Origin: Hyphomicrobiaceae bacterium
Lineage (GTDB): Bacteria > Pseudomonadota > Alphaproteobacteria > Rhizobiales > Hyphomicrobiaceae
Direction of reading: 5' to 3'
Assembly: GCA_022844275.1 (NCBI GenBank)
Contig: JALHMB010000001.1
Span: forward strand, 124,001-188,000
Length of the DNA stretch: 64,000 nucleotides
Positions within the stretch are counted from its first letter, which is position 1, and every line of letters begins with the position of its first letter. The notes under the pieces were generated by a model, which had not been told where the DNA came from, made no database searches, and saw nothing but the letters and a program-made list of their open reading frames with translations. The position numbers were made by a program, and so were the translations under genes. This document shows, one piece after another, positions 19,517 through 28,592 of this stretch.

Positions 19517-20185
19517 ATGGCATCCGTCACGATCGAAGCAGAGCCGACCTCGCTTGCCATCGACCTCCAGAAGACGGCGCTCATCATCATCGACATGCAG
19601 CGCGATTTCCTGGAGCCCGGCGGCTTCGGCGAAACACTCGGCAATGACGTATCGCGGCTCGCAGTGGCCGTAGAGCCATGCCGCGCCGTACTCGATGCCG
19701 CCCGCCGCAAAGGCCTGCTCGTCATTCACACACGCGAGGGCCACCGGCCTGATCTTTCGGATGCGCCGCCAGCCAAAGTCGAGCGCGGCATTCCAAGCCT
19801 GCGCATTGGCGCGCCCGGTCCCATGGGCCGCATTCTCGTGCGCGGCGAGCCCGGTCACGACATCATTCCCGCACTTTATCCGGCAGAAGGCGAACCCGTC
19901 ATCGACAAGCCCGGCAAGGGCGCCTTCTATCAGACTGAGCTCGAGCTCATGCTGCGCAATCGCGGCATCGAGAACCTGCTCGTCTGCGGCGTGACGACCG
20001 AGGTGTGCGTCAATACCACCGTGCGCGAAGCCAATGACCGAGGCTACCGCTGCATCGTGCTGTCCGACTGCTGCGCGTCGTACTTTCCCGAATTCCACGC
20101 GGCGGGCCTCGCCATGATCAAGGCACAGGGCGGCATCTTCGGCTGGGTGTCGTCATCGAAGGCCGTACTCGCAGCGATTGATTGA
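19517..20185 (+). CDS. Isochorismatase-family cysteine hydrolase, biuret/triuret-hydrolase-like
   Basis: The catalytic triad of the cysteine hydrolase family is present: aspartate in [14 protein letters not shown], lysine in [11 protein letters not shown], and cysteine in [15 protein letters not shown]. The sequence pattern around [27 protein letters not shown] and [15 protein letters not shown] resembles enzymes that hydrolyse biuret or triuret amides, so an amide from nitrogen-rich heterocycles or ureides is the likely substrate. That substrate is inference. It follows senC by 63 bases and precedes an NCS2-like permease on the same strand, which supports uptake and breakdown of a nucleobase-like nitrogen source. 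Confidence 0.82.
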
Positions 20186-20425
20186 AACGCACGTAGCGCG
20201 CCGCTTTTCCGTTCACTCTCGCGCGACAGTGCCGCCAGAGTAGGCAGCCGAGACGCGCATTCCGGCGGTCCAGGACTCTGTGCTTCGAAACAACCTGATT
20301 GACCGCGTTGACAAAATCGCGCGCAACGTTTCCACCGGCGGACAAGCGTTACGCGTGGCGTGAATCTTGCGACGCGACCCCGATGCCGCGAGGCACTTGG
20401 CGCGGCCGCATGGGGGACCAGAGCC

Positions 20426-22006
20426 ATGGCTACCGCGACCGAAGAGCATCGCCCAGTCCTGTGGACGCCCGGCGATTGGAATGCCTTCTTCGGCTTCGGC
20501 ACCAACATCCTCGTCAACATGCTCGTACTGACGGGGCTGCTGCGCTTCGTTCTCAAGATGCCGGACAGCTTGGTCTTCGGCCGCATCCTGCCGGCGCTCG
20601 GCCTCATGATGTGCCTCTCGACGATGTACTACGCCTTCCTCGCCTATCGCCTGGCGAAGCGGACCGGGCGAACGGATGTGTGCGCGCTCCCCTCCGGCGT
20701 CAGCGTCCCGCACATGTTCGTCGTCACCTTCGTGATCATGCTGCCGATCTCGCTGCAGACGGGCGATCCGATCAAGGGCTGGCAGGCCGGCCTCGTCTGG
20801 GTGTTCTTCCAGAGTTTCATCCTGATGATCGGCGGCTTCATCGCGCCGTACATCCGCAAGATCACGCCGCGGGCTGCCCTGCTCGGCACACTGGCCGGCG
20901 TCTCCGTCACGTTCATTTCCATGCGGCCGGCGCTCGAAATGTACATGACGCCCATGATCGGTATTCCCTGCTTCGCGATCATCCTGGTCGCGTGGTTCGG
21001 CGGCTTCCGCTATCCGCGCGGCATCCCGGCAGGCCTCGTCGCCATTGCCGCGGGCATGCTGATCGCTTGGGGATCGAACCTCTTCGGTCTCAACTACGGC
21101 GGCCTCAGCCTGCAGAAGCTCGCCGCGTCGCTCACGAGCTTCGGCTTCTCGGTGCCGCTTCCCGCCTACAACGAACTGTTCGGCGGCTTCGAGTTCCTCG
21201 GCATCATTCTCGTGACCGCGATCCCGTTCGGCATCTACGACCTCGTCGAAGCCATGGACAATGTCGAGAGTGCGGAAGTGGCGGGCGATCCCTATCCCAC
21301 CACGCAGGTGCTCACGGCGGACGGTGTCGTCAGCCTGATCGGATGCCTCATGGGCAATCCTTTCATCAACGCCGTCTACATCGGCCATCCCGGCTGGAAA
21401 GCCATGGGCGGACGCATCGGCTATTCGGCGGCGACCGGGCTCATGGTCATCGTGCTCTCGTGGTTCGGCATCATCGCGCTGCTGCTGTCGCTGGTGCCCG
21501 TCGTCGCGATCTCGCCGATCCTGCTCTACATCGGCATGCTGATCGGCGCGCAGGCTTTCCAGGAAACGCCGAAGAGCCACGCGCCTGCCGTCGTTCTGGC
21601 GCTCGTGCCGCATCTCGCCGCATGGTGTAAGACGCTCATGGACGGCGCGCTGCAGGCGGCCGGCACGAATGCACATGCCATAGGCTTTGAAAAGCTCGGG
21701 CAGGTCGGCGTGCTCTACCAGGGGCTCGAAGTACTCGGCGGCGGCGCCATCCTGACCGGCCTCATCTTCGGGGCGCTCGGCGCATTCATCATCGACAGGC
21801 AATTCCTGTCGGCATCGGCGTTCGCAGCCGCGGCCGCTGTGCTGACGTTCTTCGGCTTCATGCATGGCGAGTCGGTCGGCATTGCCGTCACACCGACGGT
21901 TGCCATCGCCTACGTAGTCGTGGCCGTGTTCCTGTTCGCGCTCAGTCGAACGTCCGTGCCCGCGCCAGCACCGGCACACTCACATCACGCGGCGGCAGCT
22001 GAATAG
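20426..22006 (+). CDS. NCS2/AzgA-like purine-type permease
   Basis: The 526-residue membrane protein has about 12 to 14 hydrophobic segments and motifs of xanthine/uracil/adenine permease-type transporters, such as TDVCALPSGVSVPHM, LVEAMDNVESAEVAGDPYPTTQ and GCLMGNPFINAVYIG. The C-terminus is proline- and histidine-rich. GGGGGA lies upstream of the ATG at 20426, which I chose over an earlier in-frame start. The 240-base gap from the cysteine hydrolase gene may hold its promoter. The substrate is probably a nucleobase-like or ureide nitrogen compound; it is not proven. Confidence 0.82.
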   Translation: MATATEEHRPVLWTPGDWNAFFGFGTNILVNMLVLTGLLRFVLKMPDSLVFGRILPALGLMMCLSTMYYAFLAYRLAKRTGRTDVCALPSGVSVPHMFVVTFVIMLPISLQTGDPIKGWQAGLVWVFFQSFILMIGGFIAPYIRKITPRAALLGTLAGVSVTFISMRPALEMYMTPMIGIPCFAIILVAWFGGFRYPRGIPAGLVAIAAGMLIAWGSNLFGLNYGGLSLQKLAASLTSFGFSVPLPAYNELFGGFEFLGIILVTAIPFGIYDLVEAMDNVESAEVAGDPYPTTQVLTADGVVSLIGCLMGNPFINAVYIGHPGWKAMGGRIGYSAATGLMVIVLSWFGIIALLLSLVPVVAISPILLYIGMLIGAQAFQETPKSHAPAVVLALVPHLAAWCKTLMDGALQAAGTNAHAIGFEKLGQVGVLYQGLEVLGGGAILTGLIFGALGAFIIDRQFLSASAFAAAAAVLTFFGFMHGESVGIAVTPTVAIAYVVVAVFLFALSRTSVPAPAPAHSHHAAAAE

Positions 22007-22012
22007 GCCTCT

Positions 22013-24205
22013 TTACCACTGCATTGTCGCTGACAGGCGGAACGAGCGCGGCTCCAGCGGGTGGAAGTGGATGTCCTCGACACCGCCGGCGGGCTCGCCG
22101 GGCAAGCGCGAGGCATAATAGTAGTCGATCTGACTTGCGTCAGCGTCGAACAGATTGAAGGCGTCCAAACGCACAATCAAACCATTATCGAACTTGTAGC
22201 CGAGGCGGGCCGAGACAGTGGTTGTCGACTCCGAGCGCACGGAGTCGTCCTCAATGAGAGGCCGCGGCCCGAAGTAGCGGACCTTCGCGCCGCCGAACCA
22301 TCCCCCGTAGACATCCTGAAAGGACAGCCCAGCGCTGATCACGCCCTCGGCGGCGCCAGGAATTCGGCGCCCCGGTGCCGTGGGATCATCCTCTCGGAAG
22401 CGGGCTTGTGTGTATGCTGCGTCGAAGTCGAGCGTGAGCCAGGGCGTGAGCTTCGCGTCGATCGTGAACTCGGCGCCGACGCGGCGGCTCGGGCGGCTCG
22501 CTTCCGTGTTGCCGGCATCGCCGATGAAAACAATCTCGGAGTCGAAATCGAGGACGAACAGCGAGAGCGTGCTGAGCAAGCCGCGCCAGGGCTGAGATCT
22601 CAGCCCAATTTCTGCGCCTTCCGATCGCACCAGGAATGGCGTCTTCTCTGCGGGATCGCCGGATACGGGATCGATGGTCGTCGTCGTGCCGCGCGCATCG
22701 TTGCTGTGGAAGCCCGTGCCGGCATTCATATAGAGCTCGGTTCCGGCCCACGGGCCGAGGACGAGACCGAGCTTCGGACTGAGGATAGCGTCGCTCTCCT
22801 TGCCCGAGTTGACCGCGAGGTTGCTTGTCACGTCCGTCCAATAGACGTCGCCGCGAAGGCCCGCCGTCGTCCGAAGCCAATTGGTCCATCGCAGTGTGTT
22901 CTCGCCGAACACGCCCGCGCTCGCCTCCTTCACACGATCGTCGCGAACCGTGGAGAGCACCGTTCGCTCGCGCGTGTTGAACAGGCCAACTTTGATGTCG
23001 TCGTAGCGCGTCTGGATGCCGACCGTGGTCTCGCTCTTCACACCAAATGCCATGCTGAGGAAGGTACGGCTGGCGCTGGCGCCTACGATCACGCGATCGT
23101 CCATCTGCTTGAACTGATCGCCGTTGATGGGGTCATTGAGGAAGTAAGTGAAGTTGTGGAACAGATCGAGGCCGCTCTTGATGGCATAGGCATTGACGCG
23201 CGTTGCGGTGACGTCAGTCGTCTCGCTCCAGCGTGCCGAGAGAGAGTAGCGCTCTGCCTTTCCATAGTCGGAGGCGTCGAGTGAGCCGAAGCGGTCGATG
23301 AGCCCGCCGTCGACGGCACGTTGCGGAATCTGGCTGGTCGCATTCCACTCGCCCGAGTAGGCCATCGCCGTGACCGCGAAGCCGTTCGCGTAAGTCCCGC
23401 GCGAGAAGCGCATCACGCCGTTGAACTTGTGCAGATCCTCCTTCACATCCCACGGCCCATCGAAGTGCACGAACTCACCGGCGACGAGCATGGCGCCATC
23501 CGCGCCGACGGGTGCCGACATGCCCGTCACCGCCCGGCGATGGCCGAAGCTGCCGACCTCCACCTGGCCGAAGTTGCGCTCCAAGCGATCGACGATATCG
23601 AGGTGAATGGCACCGGCTGACGAGAAGTCGCCCTCAGAAGCGAAGTACGGGCCCTTCCGGTAGGACAGGCCGCGCATGATCTCTGGGATCATGAAGGCGG
23701 TGTCCGCGTAGCCCTGCCCGTGGCCGTGCGTCCGCATGTTGACGGGCATTCCGTCGATCGTGATGGCGATGTCGGTACCGTGGTCGAGATTGAAGCCACG
23801 AAGGAAGTACTGATTTGCCTTCCCCTCACCACTGTGCTGGGTAACGATCAATCCCGGCACGGCTTCGAGCATTTCGCCCGTGCGATAGGCCGGCTGTGCC
23901 AGAAGCTCATCGCGCGTGACGACACCTTGGCTCGCCGACTGCGCTATGCCCACATCGTTGCCGCGCGGGTCGATGGTCAGGATCGGCCCAAAGGTGGAGG
24001 CCGCGTCAGCGAGCGGCGCCGTGTCAGGGACGTTGCTCGCCACGGGAGCCGTGCTCGGCGGGGGCGCCTTTGCCTGGGCTTTCGCTTTGGCCTTTGCCGC
24101 AGGGGCTGTGACCACCAAGCCGGGCAACTGCTGAGCCTGCTGTGCCGTAGCGCTGCCACTGAGCGCCAGGACGATCGCAAACGCCACATAAACACGCCTG
24201 CCCAT
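22013..24205 (-). CDS. TonB-dependent outer membrane receptor
   Basis: This 730-residue protein has a signal peptide (MGRRVYVAFAIVLALSGSAT), an alanine/lysine/proline-rich periplasmic linker, a plug domain (LLAQPAYRTGEMLEAVPG, FLRGFNLDHGTDIAITIDG) and a 22-strand type barrel that ends in the aromatic RLSATMQW typical of outer membrane proteins. An HGHG motif lies in the plug near residue 160. It is divergent from the nikR-like gene, with a NikR-type operator 58 to 85 bases ahead of its start. This makes a nickel- or cobalt-complex receptor the best guess from known NikR-TonB pairs. The substrate is inferred. Confidence 0.9.
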   Translation of the reverse strand: MGRRVYVAFAIVLALSGSATAQQAQQLPGLVVTAPAAKAKAKAQAKAPPPSTAPVASNVPDTAPLADAASTFGPILTIDPRGNDVGIAQSASQGVVTRDELLAQPAYRTGEMLEAVPGLIVTQHSGEGKANQYFLRGFNLDHGTDIAITIDGMPVNMRTHGHGQGYADTAFMIPEIMRGLSYRKGPYFASEGDFSSAGAIHLDIVDRLERNFGQVEVGSFGHRRAVTGMSAPVGADGAMLVAGEFVHFDGPWDVKEDLHKFNGVMRFSRGTYANGFAVTAMAYSGEWNATSQIPQRAVDGGLIDRFGSLDASDYGKAERYSLSARWSETTDVTATRVNAYAIKSGLDLFHNFTYFLNDPINGDQFKQMDDRVIVGASASRTFLSMAFGVKSETTVGIQTRYDDIKVGLFNTRERTVLSTVRDDRVKEASAGVFGENTLRWTNWLRTTAGLRGDVYWTDVTSNLAVNSGKESDAILSPKLGLVLGPWAGTELYMNAGTGFHSNDARGTTTTIDPVSGDPAEKTPFLVRSEGAEIGLRSQPWRGLLSTLSLFVLDFDSEIVFIGDAGNTEASRPSRRVGAEFTIDAKLTPWLTLDFDAAYTQARFREDDPTAPGRRIPGAAEGVISAGLSFQDVYGGWFGGAKVRYFGPRPLIEDDSVRSESTTTVSARLGYKFDNGLIVRLDAFNLFDADASQIDYYYASRLPGEPAGGVEDIHFHPLEPRSFRLSATMQW

Positions 24206-24262
24206 TCCCCATCCCACCCCGATATCGCGACCCAACCGGTAGCAACGCTAGGGGGAGTGCCA

Positions 24263-24290
24263 GTATGATGTCCGTTCCAAAAGATCATAC
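24263..24290. promoter_or_regulatory. NikR-type operator, GTATGA-N16-TCATAC
   Basis: The half sites GTATGA (24263-24268) and TCATAC (24285-24290) are perfect inverted copies separated by exactly 16 bases. This is the operator form established for Escherichia coli NikR. It sits between the divergent TonB receptor and nikR-like genes and could control both. The nikR-like start is 29 bases downstream of its right edge. Confidence 0.88.
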
Positions 24291-24319
24291 TCGGTCGGTT
24301 CTAGCTCACTGAGGCTAAC

Positions 24320-24787
24320 ATGCAACGCATCACCATCACGATCGACGACGCCCTTGCCGATGAAATAGACAAGCTTGCCCAATCGCGCGGCAATCAGAAC
24401 CGATCGGAGGCCGTGCGTGATCTCGTCCGCGCCGGCATCGCGCACACGCGATCGGATACGTCAGCCGCATCGCAATGCGTGGCGGCCGTGCTCTACGTCT
24501 ACGATCAGGGGATGCGGGAACTGCCAAAGCGCATTGCCCATGCCTATCAGGATCAGCACGATCTCTCAGTGGCAACGATGCGCATTGCCCTCGACCACGA
24601 CAGCTGCATGGAAGTGGCCGTGCTCAAGGGGCGAACCGGCGATGTCGAGCGACTGGCCGAGCGCATAATTGCCGAACGTGGCGTGCAGCATGCCCGCCTG
24701 ATGGTGATACCTGCTGAAATCAAGCATACGCGGCACTCGCACGGCGACCGGCAGCCGCACGTCCATCAGCACATCAAGGTGAGGTAG
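24320..24787 (+). CDS. nikR: NikR-like ribbon-helix-helix regulator with altered metal site
   Basis: NikR is a nickel-dependent repressor with an N-terminal ribbon-helix-helix and a C-terminal ACT-like metal domain. Here the DNA-contact strand MQRITIT keeps R3, T5 and T7, and RNQNRSEAVRDL-like packing is intact. The metal domain (HDLSVATMRIALDHDSCMEV) aligns closely with E. coli NikR, but the ligands H76, H87 and H89 are Q77, R88 and A90; only the cysteine (C96) remains. A histidine-rich tail follows residue 134. The upstream operator is perfect. It overlaps the convergent gene at 24766 by 22 bases. Its signal may therefore not be canonical nickel binding. Confidence 0.9.
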   Translation: MQRITITIDDALADEIDKLAQSRGNQNRSEAVRDLVRAGIAHTRSDTSAASQCVAAVLYVYDQGMRELPKRIAHAYQDQHDLSVATMRIALDHDSCMEVAVLKGRTGDVERLAERIIAERGVQHARLMVIPAEIKHTRHSHGDRQPHVHQHIKVR

Positions 24788-25023
24788 TCCTTCGGGAGGC
24801 GGCCGTGCTGGTCGAGCAGCGCAAATCCCTCCCGCGTGGCCACGACTATTAGCCCCGCGCTCGACGTCTCCGCCCTTAGCAGATCGCGATCGACGGCATC
24901 CTCCCAGACGGTCAGGCGCGGGCAGGATGTCCGCCAGATATCCATGACCTGCTCGTAGGGACGCGGCTCCTTCGCAATCCACTCGACCAAGTCGATGATC
25001 AGCGGCTCGATGTTGCCAGACAT
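24766..25023 (-). CDS. Small conserved protein of unknown function
   Basis: This 85-residue protein reads SGNIEPLIIDLVEWIAKEPR, then YEQVMDIWRTSCPRLTVWEDA and a LIVVATREGFALL segment. The pattern suggests a small winged-helix-like fold, and similar proteins occur in other Hyphomicrobiales, but I know of no function. The ribosome site GGAGGA lies five bases before the ATG, so the start is firm. It follows the TSUP transporter gene by nine bases on the same strand and is likely co-transcribed with it. Its 3' end overlaps the end of the nikR-like gene on the opposite strand. Confidence 0.72.
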   Translation of the reverse strand: MSGNIEPLIIDLVEWIAKEPRPYEQVMDIWRTSCPRLTVWEDAVDRDLLRAETSSAGLIVVATREGFALLDQHGRLPKDYLTLMC

Positions 25024-25032
25024 CTCTTCCTC

Positions 25033-25779
25033 CTAGTTCGCCGCAATGGCGAGTTGGTAGAGGCCCTGCGCAATGTACACGCAAGCAATCGTCGTGACGA
25101 TGCGCATGGCCCAAACGCGATACTGGGCATCGCTGAGCCGCTCGAGAACCGGCTTTGCCAGTGACGTCCCTGCGACCGTTGAGACGATGGCGACGCCGAC
25201 GAGCAGCGGATCGAGCGATGCAGCCTGAGTGACCAGCCCGCCGAAGTAAGCCAGCTTCGCCGTATGGCAGCAGACCTGGCAGATGGCCTTTGTCGCCACG
25301 ATCTCACGGCGCTCGAACTTCCCGCCGAGAAAGTACGTGTCGATCAATGGCCCGGAGACACCGGCGAGCAACATCAGGATCATACTCGCCGCTCCGACCG
25401 CCACGCCGTGGAGTGGGCGCGCGGGATCCGGCTTGAGGCCTGCCGGCAGCAATCTCACGACGAATGGCGCGAACCCGAGCAGCACCAGCGTCAGAGCCGT
25501 GCTCGGCACATAGCCCCAGACGCTCCAAACAGCGAACGCGATGGCACTGCCCGCGAGAAAGCCGCCGGCACTCCGCCACCGCACGTAGCGCAGCCATAGG
25601 AGCCCCCGCCATCCGTTCGAGGTCATCTGAGTTATGGCGTGCAAGGCCATGGCCTCAGGCAGGGCGAGCACGGCAAGCAGGATACCAAGCAGGATCATGC
25701 CGCCCGCCATGCCGAAGATGCCGGACAGGAAGGAGCACGCCACCATGGCGGCGGCGAGAGCGGCGATCGTCGGGGTCAT
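25033..25779 (-). CDS. TSUP (TauE/SafE) family membrane transporter
   Basis: The protein of 248 residues has about seven to eight hydrophobic segments and the SGIFGMAGGMILLGILL signature of the TSUP family, members of which export sulfite or sulfonates or carry other small anions. A cysteine-histidine cluster, CQVCCHTAKL, lies in a membrane segment and could matter for its substrate. ATG at 25779 is preferred over a GTG one codon earlier. It is divergent from a LysR gene with a short gap containing a TGCATT/AATGCA dyad, so the LysR product probably regulates it. Substrate is not determinable. Confidence 0.82.
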   Translation of the reverse strand: MTPTIAALAAAMVACSFLSGIFGMAGGMILLGILLAVLALPEAMALHAITQMTSNGWRGLLWLRYVRWRSAGGFLAGSAIAFAVWSVWGYVPSTALTLVLLGFAPFVVRLLPAGLKPDPARPLHGVAVGAASMILMLLAGVSGPLIDTYFLGGKFERREIVATKAICQVCCHTAKLAYFGGLVTQAASLDPLLVGVAIVSTVAGTSLAKPVLERLSDAQYRVWAMRIVTTIACVYIAQGLYQLAIAAN

Positions 25780-25819
25780 CACGGCAGGTCACCTCGCAGA
25801 TCGCCATCATGCGAGATGT

Positions 25820-25839
25820 TGCATTATGCGTCCAATGCA
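25820..25839. promoter_or_regulatory. Dyad TGCATT-N8-AATGCA, candidate LysR operator
   Basis: An inverted repeat with TGCATT at 25820-25825 and AATGCA at 25834-25839 lies in the 98-base gap between the divergent TSUP transporter and LysR genes. A further TGCATT lies near 25849. LysR regulators bind interrupted dyads in such divergent gaps. The link is by position only. Confidence 0.45.
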
Positions 25840-25877
25840 TTTAACTTCTGCATTTACATGCACAATTTGGATGATAC

Positions 25878-26849
25878 ATGGACCTGACGCAGCTCCGCGC
25901 ATTCGTGACGGTCGCCGATGCGGGCGGCGTCTCGCGCGCTGCCGAGCGGCTCCATCTCAGCCAGCCCGCGCTCTCGCGGCAGCTCCAGACGCTCGAAGCG
26001 GAGCTTGGGCTCAGGCTGTTCGATCGAACGGAACGCCGCTTGCGCTTGACGTCGAGCGGCGAAGATCTCCTTCGGCGATCCAGAGCCATACTCTCCGACG
26101 CAGAGGCATTGAAGGATCGCGCCAAGTCGCTTCAGTCCGGCGACACCGGCATTCTAAGGATCGGCGCGACGCCGCCCACGATCGAAGCGCCGCTGGCCGG
26201 CTTTCTCGGTGATTGGCGCGAGCGTCATCCCGGCATCGAAGTGCATCTCGTCGAGGATGGCGGCACGCATCTGGCCGACCGTCTGCACGAGGGCGAAGTG
26301 CATGTTGCCTACGTCCCTGCTGGCGACTCCCGGTTCGATCATCAGCCCCTCTATCCGATCCATGTCGTCGCAGCCGTCGCAGCGGATCATCAACTCGCAC
26401 GCGCGCGAACACTCGAGCTGACAGCGGTGGTGGACTTCGATGTCATGCCGCTGCACGCAGGCTTCGGTTCGCGCGACTGGTTCGATGCAGCCTGCCGCGC
26501 TGCCGGTCTCCGACCCAAGGTCGTATTCGAAAGCGCTTCGCACAACGCGATCCTGGCACTCGCCGCCGCACGGTACGGCATCGGCATACTGCCATCGGCC
26601 GTCGCTCCGGCGCCCGATCGCGTACGCCTTCTGCCGCTCGTACACGAGGGCGCCGCGCTCGGGCGCTGGACCATGATCGCCTGGAGCAAGCGGCGACATC
26701 TCCCCGCCTATGCCAGGATCTTCGTCGAGGAATTCAGCGCGTATGCCCGCCTTCACTATCCCGGCCGGGCACTCTTACGGCAGGCGCCGAGGATCAAGCC
26801 CCCAGCCGGAATGGCGCAACCGTTGTCAAAAGGACGCGGCAGCGAATGA
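25878..26849 (+). CDS. LysR-family transcriptional regulator
   Basis: The N-terminal domain (MDLTQLRAFVTVADAGGVSR, AAERLHLSQPALSRQLQTLE, LFDRTERRLRLTSSGE) is a textbook LysR helix-turn-helix. The effector domain follows and includes ARYGIGILPSAVAP near the end. At 323 residues it is slightly long because of a basic tail. It is divergent from the TSUP transporter gene, which is its most likely target. A dyad in the gap fits that idea. Its inducer is unknown. Confidence 0.9.
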   Translation: MDLTQLRAFVTVADAGGVSRAAERLHLSQPALSRQLQTLEAELGLRLFDRTERRLRLTSSGEDLLRRSRAILSDAEALKDRAKSLQSGDTGILRIGATPPTIEAPLAGFLGDWRERHPGIEVHLVEDGGTHLADRLHEGEVHVAYVPAGDSRFDHQPLYPIHVVAAVAADHQLARARTLELTAVVDFDVMPLHAGFGSRDWFDAACRAAGLRPKVVFESASHNAILALAAARYGIGILPSAVAPAPDRVRLLPLVHEGAALGRWTMIAWSKRRHLPAYARIFVEEFSAYARLHYPGRALLRQAPRIKPPAGMAQPLSKGRGSE

Positions 26850-27077
26850 AGGCGCGCGCCTTAAACCCTTCTCCTCTTTCACCTTAAGCAGAATCGGCCC
26901 ACACTAAGACGTGGGAGATTGTGTCGACTGAGTGATCGTTCCATCGCGATAAGGCGCCGCACCATGCGATCGGCGAAGGTGTAACAGGCGGAACTGCCGA
27001 CCGCGTCGCACTGTTAGCAAGATGCGCCACACGACGGAATCAACGATCACTCTGGGAAACACACTGGGGAGAGAAAA

Positions 27078-28592
27078 ATGCTCTACCATTGGTACGAGCT
27101 CGGCCATGTGGCCGTGCGCCCGGTACGCGCTGCTGCCGGCTCTGCCCGGCTTCTGCTCTCCAACCCGTTCAATCCGATGACGCACACGAGCGTCGGACGC
27201 CACACGGCGGCGGCGCTCGATGTCTTCGAGCGCACGACACGGCGCTACGACAAACCGAACTACCGAATCGACCGCACGAATGTCGACGGCGTCGACGTCG
27301 GCGTGCGCGAGGAAGTGGTGTGGCAACATCCCTTCTGCCGCCTCGTCCATTTCAAACGCGACATCGCGCCGGTCCGCGCCGCTCGTGATCCACGCCTGCT
27401 GCTTGTAGCGCCCATGTCCGGCCACTTCGCGACGCTGTTGCGCGGCACGGTCGAAACCTTTCTTCCTGACCACGAGGTCTACATCACCGATTGGCAGGAC
27501 GCGCGCGACGTGCCGCTCGCGGCTGGCGAGTTCCGCCTCGAGGATTACACCGACGCGATGATCGCCATGTTCCGGCACTTCGGCGGTGACGTGCACGTGT
27601 TCTCGGTGTGCCAGCCTTCCGTGCCCGTACTCGCGGCAGTCTCGCTCATGGAAGCCGAGGGCGATCCCGACGTGCCGCTCAGCATGTCGCTCGCGGGCGG
27701 ACCGATCGACACGCGCCGCAGCCCGACGATCGTCAACCAGCTCGCCGAGCAGCGCGGTACGGACTGGTTCCGCCGCAATGTCATCACGCAGGTGCCGTGG
27801 CCCAATGCCGGCGCGGGACGCTCGGTTTATCCGGGCTTTCTGCAACTCAGCGGGTTCATGACCATGAACCTCGACCGGCACATGAACGCGCACAAGGATC
27901 TCTTCTTCCATCTCGTGCGCGGCGACGGCGACAGTGCGGAGAAACACCGCGAGTTCTACGACGAATACCTCGCTGTCATGGATCTCACCGCGGAGTTCTA
28001 TCTCGACACGGTCGACACCGTGTTCGTGCGCCATCTCCTTCCGAAGGGCGAGATGTACCACCGCGGCCGCCTCATCGATCCGAGTGCGATCCGCCGCGTC
28101 GGTCTTCTGACCATCGAAGGCGAGAAGGATGACATCACCGGCCTCGGTCAGTGCCACGCCGCAAACGACCTCTGCACCTCGCTGCCAGCGGCCGACAAGA
28201 TGAAATTCACATGTCCGCACGTCGGCCACTACGGCATTTTCAACGGCTCCCGCTTCCGCCGCGAGATTGCACCACGAATCGCGGCGTTCGCGCGCGCACG
28301 TGATCCGCGCACCAAGGCAGGAATCGCTTCGCCCGCGCTTCAACGCCGCGCGACGCGTGAAACAGCAAGCACTGAGGCGCGCGAAATTTCTTCTTCCGCC
28401 TTCACGTTCGGATCACACGAAGCGACGAGCACGCCTCGCACACCCAAGCGTCGCAATGACGCAGCTGCGTCGAAGCGCGCTTCACATTCTCTGGCAGCCG
28501 ATGCGCTGTATCTTCCTCAGCTCGCACATCTAACCATGCTGCAGCTCGCCGGCAGTCTGTTCTTCGACGGGCTCCGAGTCTGGCAGCAATAG
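27078..28592 (+). CDS. phaZ: Intracellular polyhydroxyalkanoate depolymerase
   Basis: PhaZ hydrolyses stored poly-3-hydroxybutyrate granules. The 504-residue protein matches the intracellular family that uses a cysteine nucleophile: C178 in HVFSVCQPSVPVLAA. LLLVAPMSGHFATLLRGTVE, FLPDHEVYITDWQDAR and TCPHVGHYGIFNG (catalytic histidine) are all present. GGGGAGA lies just before the ATG. Family members are about 400 to 430 residues, so the last 90 residues, rich in arginine, serine and threonine, form an unusual extension. It is a single-gene unit. Confidence 0.92.
   Translation: MLYHWYELGHVAVRPVRAAAGSARLLLSNPFNPMTHTSVGRHTAAALDVFERTTRRYDKPNYRIDRTNVDGVDVGVREEVVWQHPFCRLVHFKRDIAPVRAARDPRLLLVAPMSGHFATLLRGTVETFLPDHEVYITDWQDARDVPLAAGEFRLEDYTDAMIAMFRHFGGDVHVFSVCQPSVPVLAAVSLMEAEGDPDVPLSMSLAGGPIDTRRSPTIVNQLAEQRGTDWFRRNVITQVPWPNAGAGRSVYPGFLQLSGFMTMNLDRHMNAHKDLFFHLVRGDGDSAEKHREFYDEYLAVMDLTAEFYLDTVDTVFVRHLLPKGEMYHRGRLIDPSAIRRVGLLTIEGEKDDITGLGQCHAANDLCTSLPAADKMKFTCPHVGHYGIFNGSRFRREIAPRIAAFARARDPRTKAGIASPALQRRATRETASTEAREISSSAFTFGSHEATSTPRTPKRRNDAAASKRASHSLAADALYLPQLAHLTMLQLAGSLFFDGLRVWQQ

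Follow-up and report, generated by a model that had tools for sequence, protein, structure and literature searches.

A NikR-family regulator in a Hyphomicrobiaceae bacterium keeps the classical operator and has lost three of four nickel ligands

The window analyzed here is a 64,000-nucleotide stretch of a Hyphomicrobiaceae bacterium genome (contig JALHMB010000001.1, positions 124,001 to 188,000). A nikR-like gene and a gene for a TonB-dependent receptor, its probable target, diverge in it from a gap of 114 bp that holds a NikR operator (Table 1). The window gene encodes a NikR-family regulator that has lost three of the four nickel ligands while its classical operator was kept. For the receptor, the ATG at 24205 is the likely start, picked by its signal peptide; the list of open reading frames (ORFs) has a TTG at 24235.

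Table 1. Features of the nikR-like locus (positions in the window)
Feature	Position	Strand	Remarks
nikR-like gene, 155 aa	24320..24787	+	starts MQRITITID; ribbon-helix-helix (RHH) DNA-binding domain ~1-45, NikR_C/ACT-like domain ~52-131, His-rich C-terminal hairpin 132-155
Operator GTATGA-N16-TCATAC	24263..24290	.	between the divergent genes, 30-57 bases ahead of nikR
TonB-dependent receptor, probable target	22013..24205	-	Pfam TonB_dep_Rec_b-barrel and Plug
Codons 77-96, former nickel site	24548..24607	+	Q77 24548-24550, R88 24581-24583, A90 24587-24589, C96 24605-24607
Codon 63 (Gln)	24506..24508	+	column is His in HHHC homologues
C-terminal His hairpin, residues 132-155	24713..24784	+	His at 136, 139, 141, 147, 149, 151

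The site in the gap (GTATGATGTCCGTTCCAAAAGATCATAC) matched GTATGA-N16-TCATAC, the Escherichia coli NikR operator described together with the nickel ligands in section 2.1 of PMC7055735, with 0 mismatches and was the sole exact match in the window. A window scan at ≤3 mismatches gave 4 matches against 7.9 expected, so that only the exact one is meaningful. In the whole genome of 6,075,391 bases the exact operator occurred once, in this gap, and one other site carried one mismatch; a backwards control pattern also gave one site at ≤1 mismatch genome-wide. Base composition predicted about 0.06 exact copies for the whole genome and about 1e-6 for the 114-bp gap. By sequence and conservation, the element would be a NikR operator at the promoter to be regulated. 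A promoter and terminator scan of 24150-24400 found no match.

The window protein passed the Pfam cut-offs of RHH_1 (40.1 bits) and NikR_C (78.6 bits), in the domain order that defines NikR. It also passed the NCBIfam models PRK02967 (168 bits, cut-off 83) and PRK04460 (108.6, cut-off 105), and scored 159.2 bits with the stricter model TIGR02793, under the cut-off of 175.45. Structure comparison by Foldseek matched it to E. coli NikR 2hza_A with a template modelling (TM) score by target length of 0.85 and to the metal domain 1q5y with 0.94-0.95; 3od2 was also matched. The potassium-site residues Glu30 and Asp34 are present and were invariant over 55 rows of one alignment. When residues 1-133 were aligned with E. 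coli NikR (1q5v), the square-planar nickel ligands H76, H87, H89 and C95 corresponded to Q77, R88, A90 and C96, and the full set of residues that makes up the nickel site is absent. No second NikR was matched in the window's genome, in which this protein is the sole one. An initial annotation, made from the letters of the DNA, had described the exact operator beside a TonB receptor, an intact DNA-contact strand, the four changed or remaining ligand columns and a His-rich tail at residues 136-151; all of these were recovered here, the tail with six His.

Below, NikR proteins are denoted by their residues at columns 77, 88, 90 and 96, HHHC being the full ligand set. Gln77 together with Arg88 (the QR type) was found in six species: the window genome, a genome of the same genus (G004, 79% identity), Hyphomicrobium sp. 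RBC040 (L007, its NikR identical to that of G468), L264 and L265 from two further genomes that share the genus code of G468, and Hyphomicrobiales AWTP1-13 (L011, its NikR identical to that of G427). When the family was searched as a whole, NikR was matched in 17 of 103 genomes, and six of these 17 were of the QR type. On a careful tree of 85 chosen rows, built without columns 63, 77, 79, 88, 90 and 96, the QR proteins formed one clade (bootstrap and Shimodaira-Hasegawa-like approximate likelihood ratio, SH-aLRT, 100/99); an earlier large tree of 189 rows was a quick version only. The initial annotation had asked whether the altered site marks a conserved subgroup, and this clade answers to that description. 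V36, T43, Q77, V84 and R88 were fixed in the clade and absent from its 12 HHHC sisters, and H63, H77, H88 and H90 were invariant in these sisters and altered in all six QR proteins. The ligand columns read QRAC in three members, QRSC in two and QRSM in one. Cys96, which had been singled out as the one surviving ligand, is indeed present in the window protein and kept in five of six members; it is Met in L011, position 90 is Ala or Ser, and the conserved part of the altered site is Gln77/Arg88.

Purifying selection acts on the QR NikRs. The ratio of nonsynonymous to synonymous substitution rates (dN/dS, NG86) was 0.14-0.28 in the five pairs computed, with dS of 0.9-1.5 near saturation, and YN00 gave 0.095 for the pair of the window protein and L007. 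Since Q77/R88 recurred in uninterrupted frames of six different genomes, the substitutions are no sequencing accident, and this source of error, named by the initial annotation as one way in which its reading could fail, was discarded. It is hardly credible that the gene is a decaying regulator under relaxed selection, or an artefact of sequencing or mis-assembly. Such a reading could point to the fragment in G444 and to the genus itself, where three of the five genomes (one only 87% complete) gave no nikR match; the six open frames, the dN/dS values and the conserved operator speak against it. The G444 fragment (L274) has 49 nikR-like residues and a tail that contains His; apparently it is the leftover of a lost gene. 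G446 (L267) encodes a distant NikR-like protein with ligand columns AHHT, and further low-scoring hits in that family were L268-L273.

The operator and the receptor were then compared across the clade. The exact operator was present in five of six QR members (the window genome, G004, L007, L264 and L265), and that of L011 was GTAAGA-N16-TCTTAC, both halves being altered at the mirrored position. Another congener, G003, is a natural knock-out: it had no NikR match and retained the receptor at 81% identity, and its still alignable upstream region showed GGGCAA in place of GTATGA and lacked both TCATAC and a start codon for nikR. The sites in the clade and the eroded one in G003 suggest that the operator has apparently been maintained along with the regulator, as had been proposed from the single locus. 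The receptor was divergent from and adjoining nikR in five of six members (67% identity in L007, 63% in L011). Opposite nikR in G004 lay only a TonB-receptor-type signal peptide fused to another stretch, and the remainder of the receptor was at the edge of another contig. The fused ORF (L116 1-459, minus strand) may be an assembly chimera or a real fusion; the hydrolase label of the stretch is our own reading, its Pfam match of 11.2 bits being under the cut-off. A changed target in G004 was considered and rejected, a chimera or rearrangement being likelier given the receptor remainder at the other contig's edge.

Ligand loss was not confined to this clade. Across the order, NikR was matched at 118 places in 115 of 397 genomes; 107 of these places were classified into 73 HHHC and 34 non-HHHC; of the other 11, six aligned too poorly (G026, G382, L197-L200) and five were sequences not included. 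The 34 comprised the window's QRAC, a group termed xxP (LSPS 9, HSPA 4, QSPS 4, LSPA 4), a group f27 (RQPV 5, LQPF 1, QAPR 1) and a group f33 (HQHC 3, HQYC 1, QRPC 1), in which four of the five proteins still have two or three ligands out of four. The f33 proteins (L138, L182, L185, L186 and L191) are NikR-like proteins of 261-267 aa. Genome G030 has ASDC, whereas its congener G007 has HHHC. The ligand state required at least five changes on the 85-row tree, and placing the 28 ligand-poor rows together in one clade received p 0.027 in the approximately unbiased test, a rejection of a single origin that is only moderate, for a group named after a tree had been seen. The xxP proteins were only 34-44% identical to the window protein, and a plasmid search with the latter returned no record at ≥60% identity. 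The sequences point to repeated loss of the nickel ligands by the NikR family in related bacteria, which looks like a genuine change in the way such cells read a metal signal. Outside the tree, a plasmid of Sphingobium sp. V4 (L276, 3001-3465), a member of a different order, encodes a NikR that reads HLRS and has Arg63; the ligands may have been lost there on yet another occasion. Three betaproteobacterial NikRs (L069, L072 and L079) have HHRC, with Arg as the third ligand, and keep His63. The operator with ≤2 mismatches was found within 300 bases of nikR in 13 of 21 xxP, two of five f33, none of seven f27 and 23 of 146 HHHC genes, and the ASDC gene (L117) had none within that distance. As far as these matches tell, the operator is not retained in all ligand-poor lineages. 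Relatives of the receptor occurred in 33 of 106 HHHC NikR loci, where flanks and distances vary.

His63, the equivalent of E. coli His62 in the alignment to 1q5v, behaved as if it belonged to the nickel site as well. The ligand groups were defined without column 63, which was His in 147/147 HHHC, 3/3 HHRC and only 1/40 ligand-poor proteins (the exception being L201). Its replacements vary by lineage (Q, P, R, L, F; Gln63 in the window protein). Among columns 1-133, only 63, 77, 79, 88, 90 and 96 separated HHHC from ligand-poor proteins (≥0.8 versus ≤0.35). Over four independent pairs on the tree, loss of His63 and of the ligands agreed in an average of 3.9 and were never opposed, although four pairs are too few for significance and a sign test on them cannot reach 0.05. 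Fisher values for His63, and for the hairpin described below, ignore relatedness and were not taken as proof. Among the papers listed by a search of the open-access literature for the role of this His, none was pertinent. The pattern suggests that His63 was lost together with the nickel ligands, the site being dismantled as a unit. It is very improbable that nickel is still usefully bound at the old site by the remaining donors (Cys96, the backbone, tail His reaching in) and brings about ordinary repression. The retention of Cys96 in five of six members and the ordinary operator would agree with such binding; three of the four ligands and His63 are gone, however, and L011 has none of the four.

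The C-terminal tail was compared by a hairpin motif devised after the tails had been seen: H-x-H-x(2-10)-H-x-H with an optional -x-H, then a short end with Val/Ile. It was found in 6/6 QR, 1/1 ASDC and 21/21 xxP proteins, in 0/7 f27, 0/5 f33 and 0/3 HHRC proteins, and in 15/147 HHHC proteins. All five f33 proteins bear other tails, which are very long (130 residues and 47 His at the median). The HHHC relatives L009 and L012 bear the same His tail as the window protein, and therefore the tail most likely predates ligand loss. For this reason the tail as a newly gained compensation for lost ligands was rejected. The initial annotation had offered the tail as a possible substitute sensor; as an acquisition that followed the loss this does not hold, and an ancestral tail may still have become the sensor. 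The matches to solved structures did not extend over the tail: none of the 12 solved sequences matched by sequence goes past residue 133, and the 50 listed of 65 structure matches (E ≤ 0.001) cover ≤135 aligned columns. In an AlphaFold2 monomer of the window protein (mean predicted local distance difference test, pLDDT, 87), strands were modelled at 122-139 and 147-154, a register in which one face of the hairpin would carry His139, 141, 147, 149 and 151. The HHHC relative L009, modelled as a control, showed the same tail strands, and therefore the model cannot tell a sensor from a store. The tail in HHHC relatives, the loss of His63 and the variable Cys were all beyond what the initial annotation had seen.

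The genomic surroundings remain of nickel type. The window genome (G000) has urease and UreJ/HupE; no [NiFe] hydrogenase was found above the cut-off, with one 23.8-bit match. In the L007 genome a hydrogenase was found and urease was not matched; close to the L007 nikR are HupE and ORFs that we read as hypB, hypD and hypE. Eighteen wide loci of other ligand-poor NikRs were compared, and 15 of them contained matches to CbiM, CbiO, NikK (DUF4198) or a NikA-like binding protein, where the weaker CbiO matches may be other ATP-binding cassette ATPases, the NikA-like proteins are under the NCBIfam nickel cut-offs and L208 is counted by CbiO only; L203, L209 and L217 had no such matches. NikK/CbiM/CbiO-type genes adjoin the f33 genes L138 and L182 in their wide loci (L210 and L211). 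A plasmid of Roseomonas marmotae encodes a NikR with LSPS and Gln63, whose tail does not fit the motif in its strict form. Opposite this nikR is a DUF4198-CbiM-CbiQ gene row (an energy-coupling factor, ECF, transporter), urease genes are nearby, and the protein is annotated as nickel-responsive (RefSeq-based) despite lacking the ligands. The receptor in the window is probably a nickel-complex receptor.

This context bears on a further explanation, namely that a rebuilt pocket senses something else. It might read cobalt, zinc or copper by way of residues such as Cys96, His80 and His93, or respond to a complex of metal and metallophore, or to a small molecule held in the manner of other ACT-like domains. 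Every QR protein (six), the ASDC protein and every xxP protein (21) has retained His80 and His93, the fold of the metal domain is intact (TM 0.95 by target length against 1q5y), and the neighboring outer-membrane receptor could import a chelate. Cys96, however, is replaced by Met in L011 and by Ser or Ala in xxP, the positions fixed in the clade and absent from the 12 HHHC sisters (only V36, T43, Q77, V84 and R88) do not amount to a new conserved ligand set, and the neighbors stay nickel-type. We regard this explanation as improbable, no observation made here pointing to another metal or ligand, and the switch to another metal, one of the options named by the initial annotation, was not supported as stated.

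The reading we prefer, tentatively and at a little less than an even chance, is that nickel sensing has passed to the C-terminal His hairpin in a working repressor. The window protein would bind the classical NikR operator between nikR and the receptor gene. The square-planar site has been dismantled as a unit, with His63, His77, His88 and His90 gone and Cys96 optional, and the cross-subunit pair His77'/His88 has been replaced by the invariant Gln77/Arg88. The His β-hairpin, already in nickel-binding relatives, would assume nickel sensing: metal on the His face (139, 141, 147, 149, 151) would tighten or order the tetramer, and the RHH domains of the ordered tetramer would hold the operator. 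With ample nickel, receptor synthesis would stop, and nikR would repress itself too. In favor of this reading are the operator kept along with the regulator, the purifying selection, the position of the protein as the only NikR of its genome, the hairpin motif in every QR, ASDC and xxP protein in spite of the low identity of xxP, the long His tails of f33, the hairpin modelled for the tail and the nickel-type context. To the computed family, operator, clade, site loss, purifying selection and age of the tail, this reading adds DNA binding, repression, metal binding by the hairpin, nickel as the metal and coupling to the RHH domains, which we infer.

Several points weigh against a sensing hairpin. 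His tails can act as metal stores instead of sensors. An association of hairpin and ligand loss beyond shared ancestry was tested on the tree and not supported: over 4 independent pairs the two went the same way in 1.3, the opposite way in 0.5 and showed no difference in 2.2. The hairpin motif was not matched in the proteins of R. marmotae and Sphingobium V4. The seven f27 proteins lack both the ligands and the tail, so that a NikR-like protein may function without either; of their three wide loci, L208 adjoins a CbiO-like gene and L209 and L217 do not. Within the QR clade, conservation of the tail was 63%, compared with 72% for the RHH domain and 69% for the metal domain. The tail was modelled at a pLDDT of only 73-79, in a monomer without metal.

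The rival taken most seriously, although rather unlikely in our view, is a repressor that works independently of metal. Intersubunit hydrogen bonds between Q77 and R88' would hold a state like the nickel-bound one, the operator would always be bound, autorepression would give a constant low level of receptor, and the tail would be a nickel store or a relic. Q77 and R88 are invariant in 6/6 QR proteins while positions 90 (A/S) and 96 (C/M) vary, and the pair recurs as Q77/R88 in L138 and, swapped, as R77/Q88 in five f27 proteins. The f27 group, without ligands and tail, also fits this rival, and the operator and dN/dS suggest a protein in use. Gln and Arg are, however, one base change from His, so the recurrence may be mutational; a constant repressor would be odd to select for across genera, as a weaker promoter would suffice; and the hairpin is retained in all six QR proteins. 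For the family as a whole, we consider it possible, though appreciably short of an even chance, that it repeatedly gave up the textbook metal site and kept the fold (here also the operator and target), that sensing moved to the C-terminal His β-hairpin, and that in f27 it is perhaps gone altogether.

Two ORFs flank the locus. A 548-aa ORF (20360-22006, plus strand) looks like a multi-pass membrane protein; it had no Pfam or NCBIfam match at 1e-3, and its best at E ≤ 10 was 13.6 bits, at chance level. An 85-aa ORF (24766-25023, minus strand) is convergent with nikR and overlaps its last 22 bases, with no family match at 1e-3 in Pfam or NCBIfam. An Rfam scan of 20000-28000 found no match.

The window protein resembles E. 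coli NikR (1q5v, 2hza, 3od2) in its RHH and NikR_C domains, fold, MQR(I/V)TIT DNA strand, E30/D34 and operator. In contrast to it, the window protein lacks three of four ligands and the His62 equivalent, has a C-terminal His hairpin that E. coli NikR does not have, and neighbors a TonB receptor instead of nikABCDE. Helicobacter pylori NikR also works as an activator. It belongs to the same family as the window protein, with 27-31% identity in the structure matches listed. As described in PMC7055735, it binds nickel at four high-affinity planar sites and, according to section 2.1 of that paper, controls the TonB-dependent uptake genes fecA3 and frpB4. Closer to the window's arrangement, the proteobacterial HHHC NikRs L009, L012, L047 and L051 have a divergent receptor of the same family and an operator with 0-2 mismatches, and differ by the full HHHC set and His63. 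The xxP, f27, f33, ASDC and R. marmotae NikRs share with the window's type the loss of the site with His63 and, mostly, Ni/Co-type transport neighborhoods; they differ in forming separate clades, in their replacements (L/S/P/S, R/Q/P/V) and in mostly ECF or NikA-like neighbors, only the ASDC one among them adjoining the TonB receptor. NikR occurrence and predicted targets are a subject of PMC2667541. Among the open-access papers ranked highest for this subject (lists of up to 20), judged by title and abstract start, no report of natural NikRs without nickel ligands was found; subscription papers were largely outside this search, and the negative is no proof of absence.

Textbooks use NikR to show how a single set of ligands lets a repressor respond to nickel, and recurrent loss of this set, here with the operator kept, provides natural site-swap experiments. 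The name "nickel-responsive transcriptional regulator NikR" is applied to proteins that have no nickel site. His63 (E. coli His62) is indicated as part of the same functional unit as the nickel ligands. If the preferred reading is true, the C-terminal His β-hairpin would give ribbon-helix-helix repressors a nickel-sensing site of a new type.

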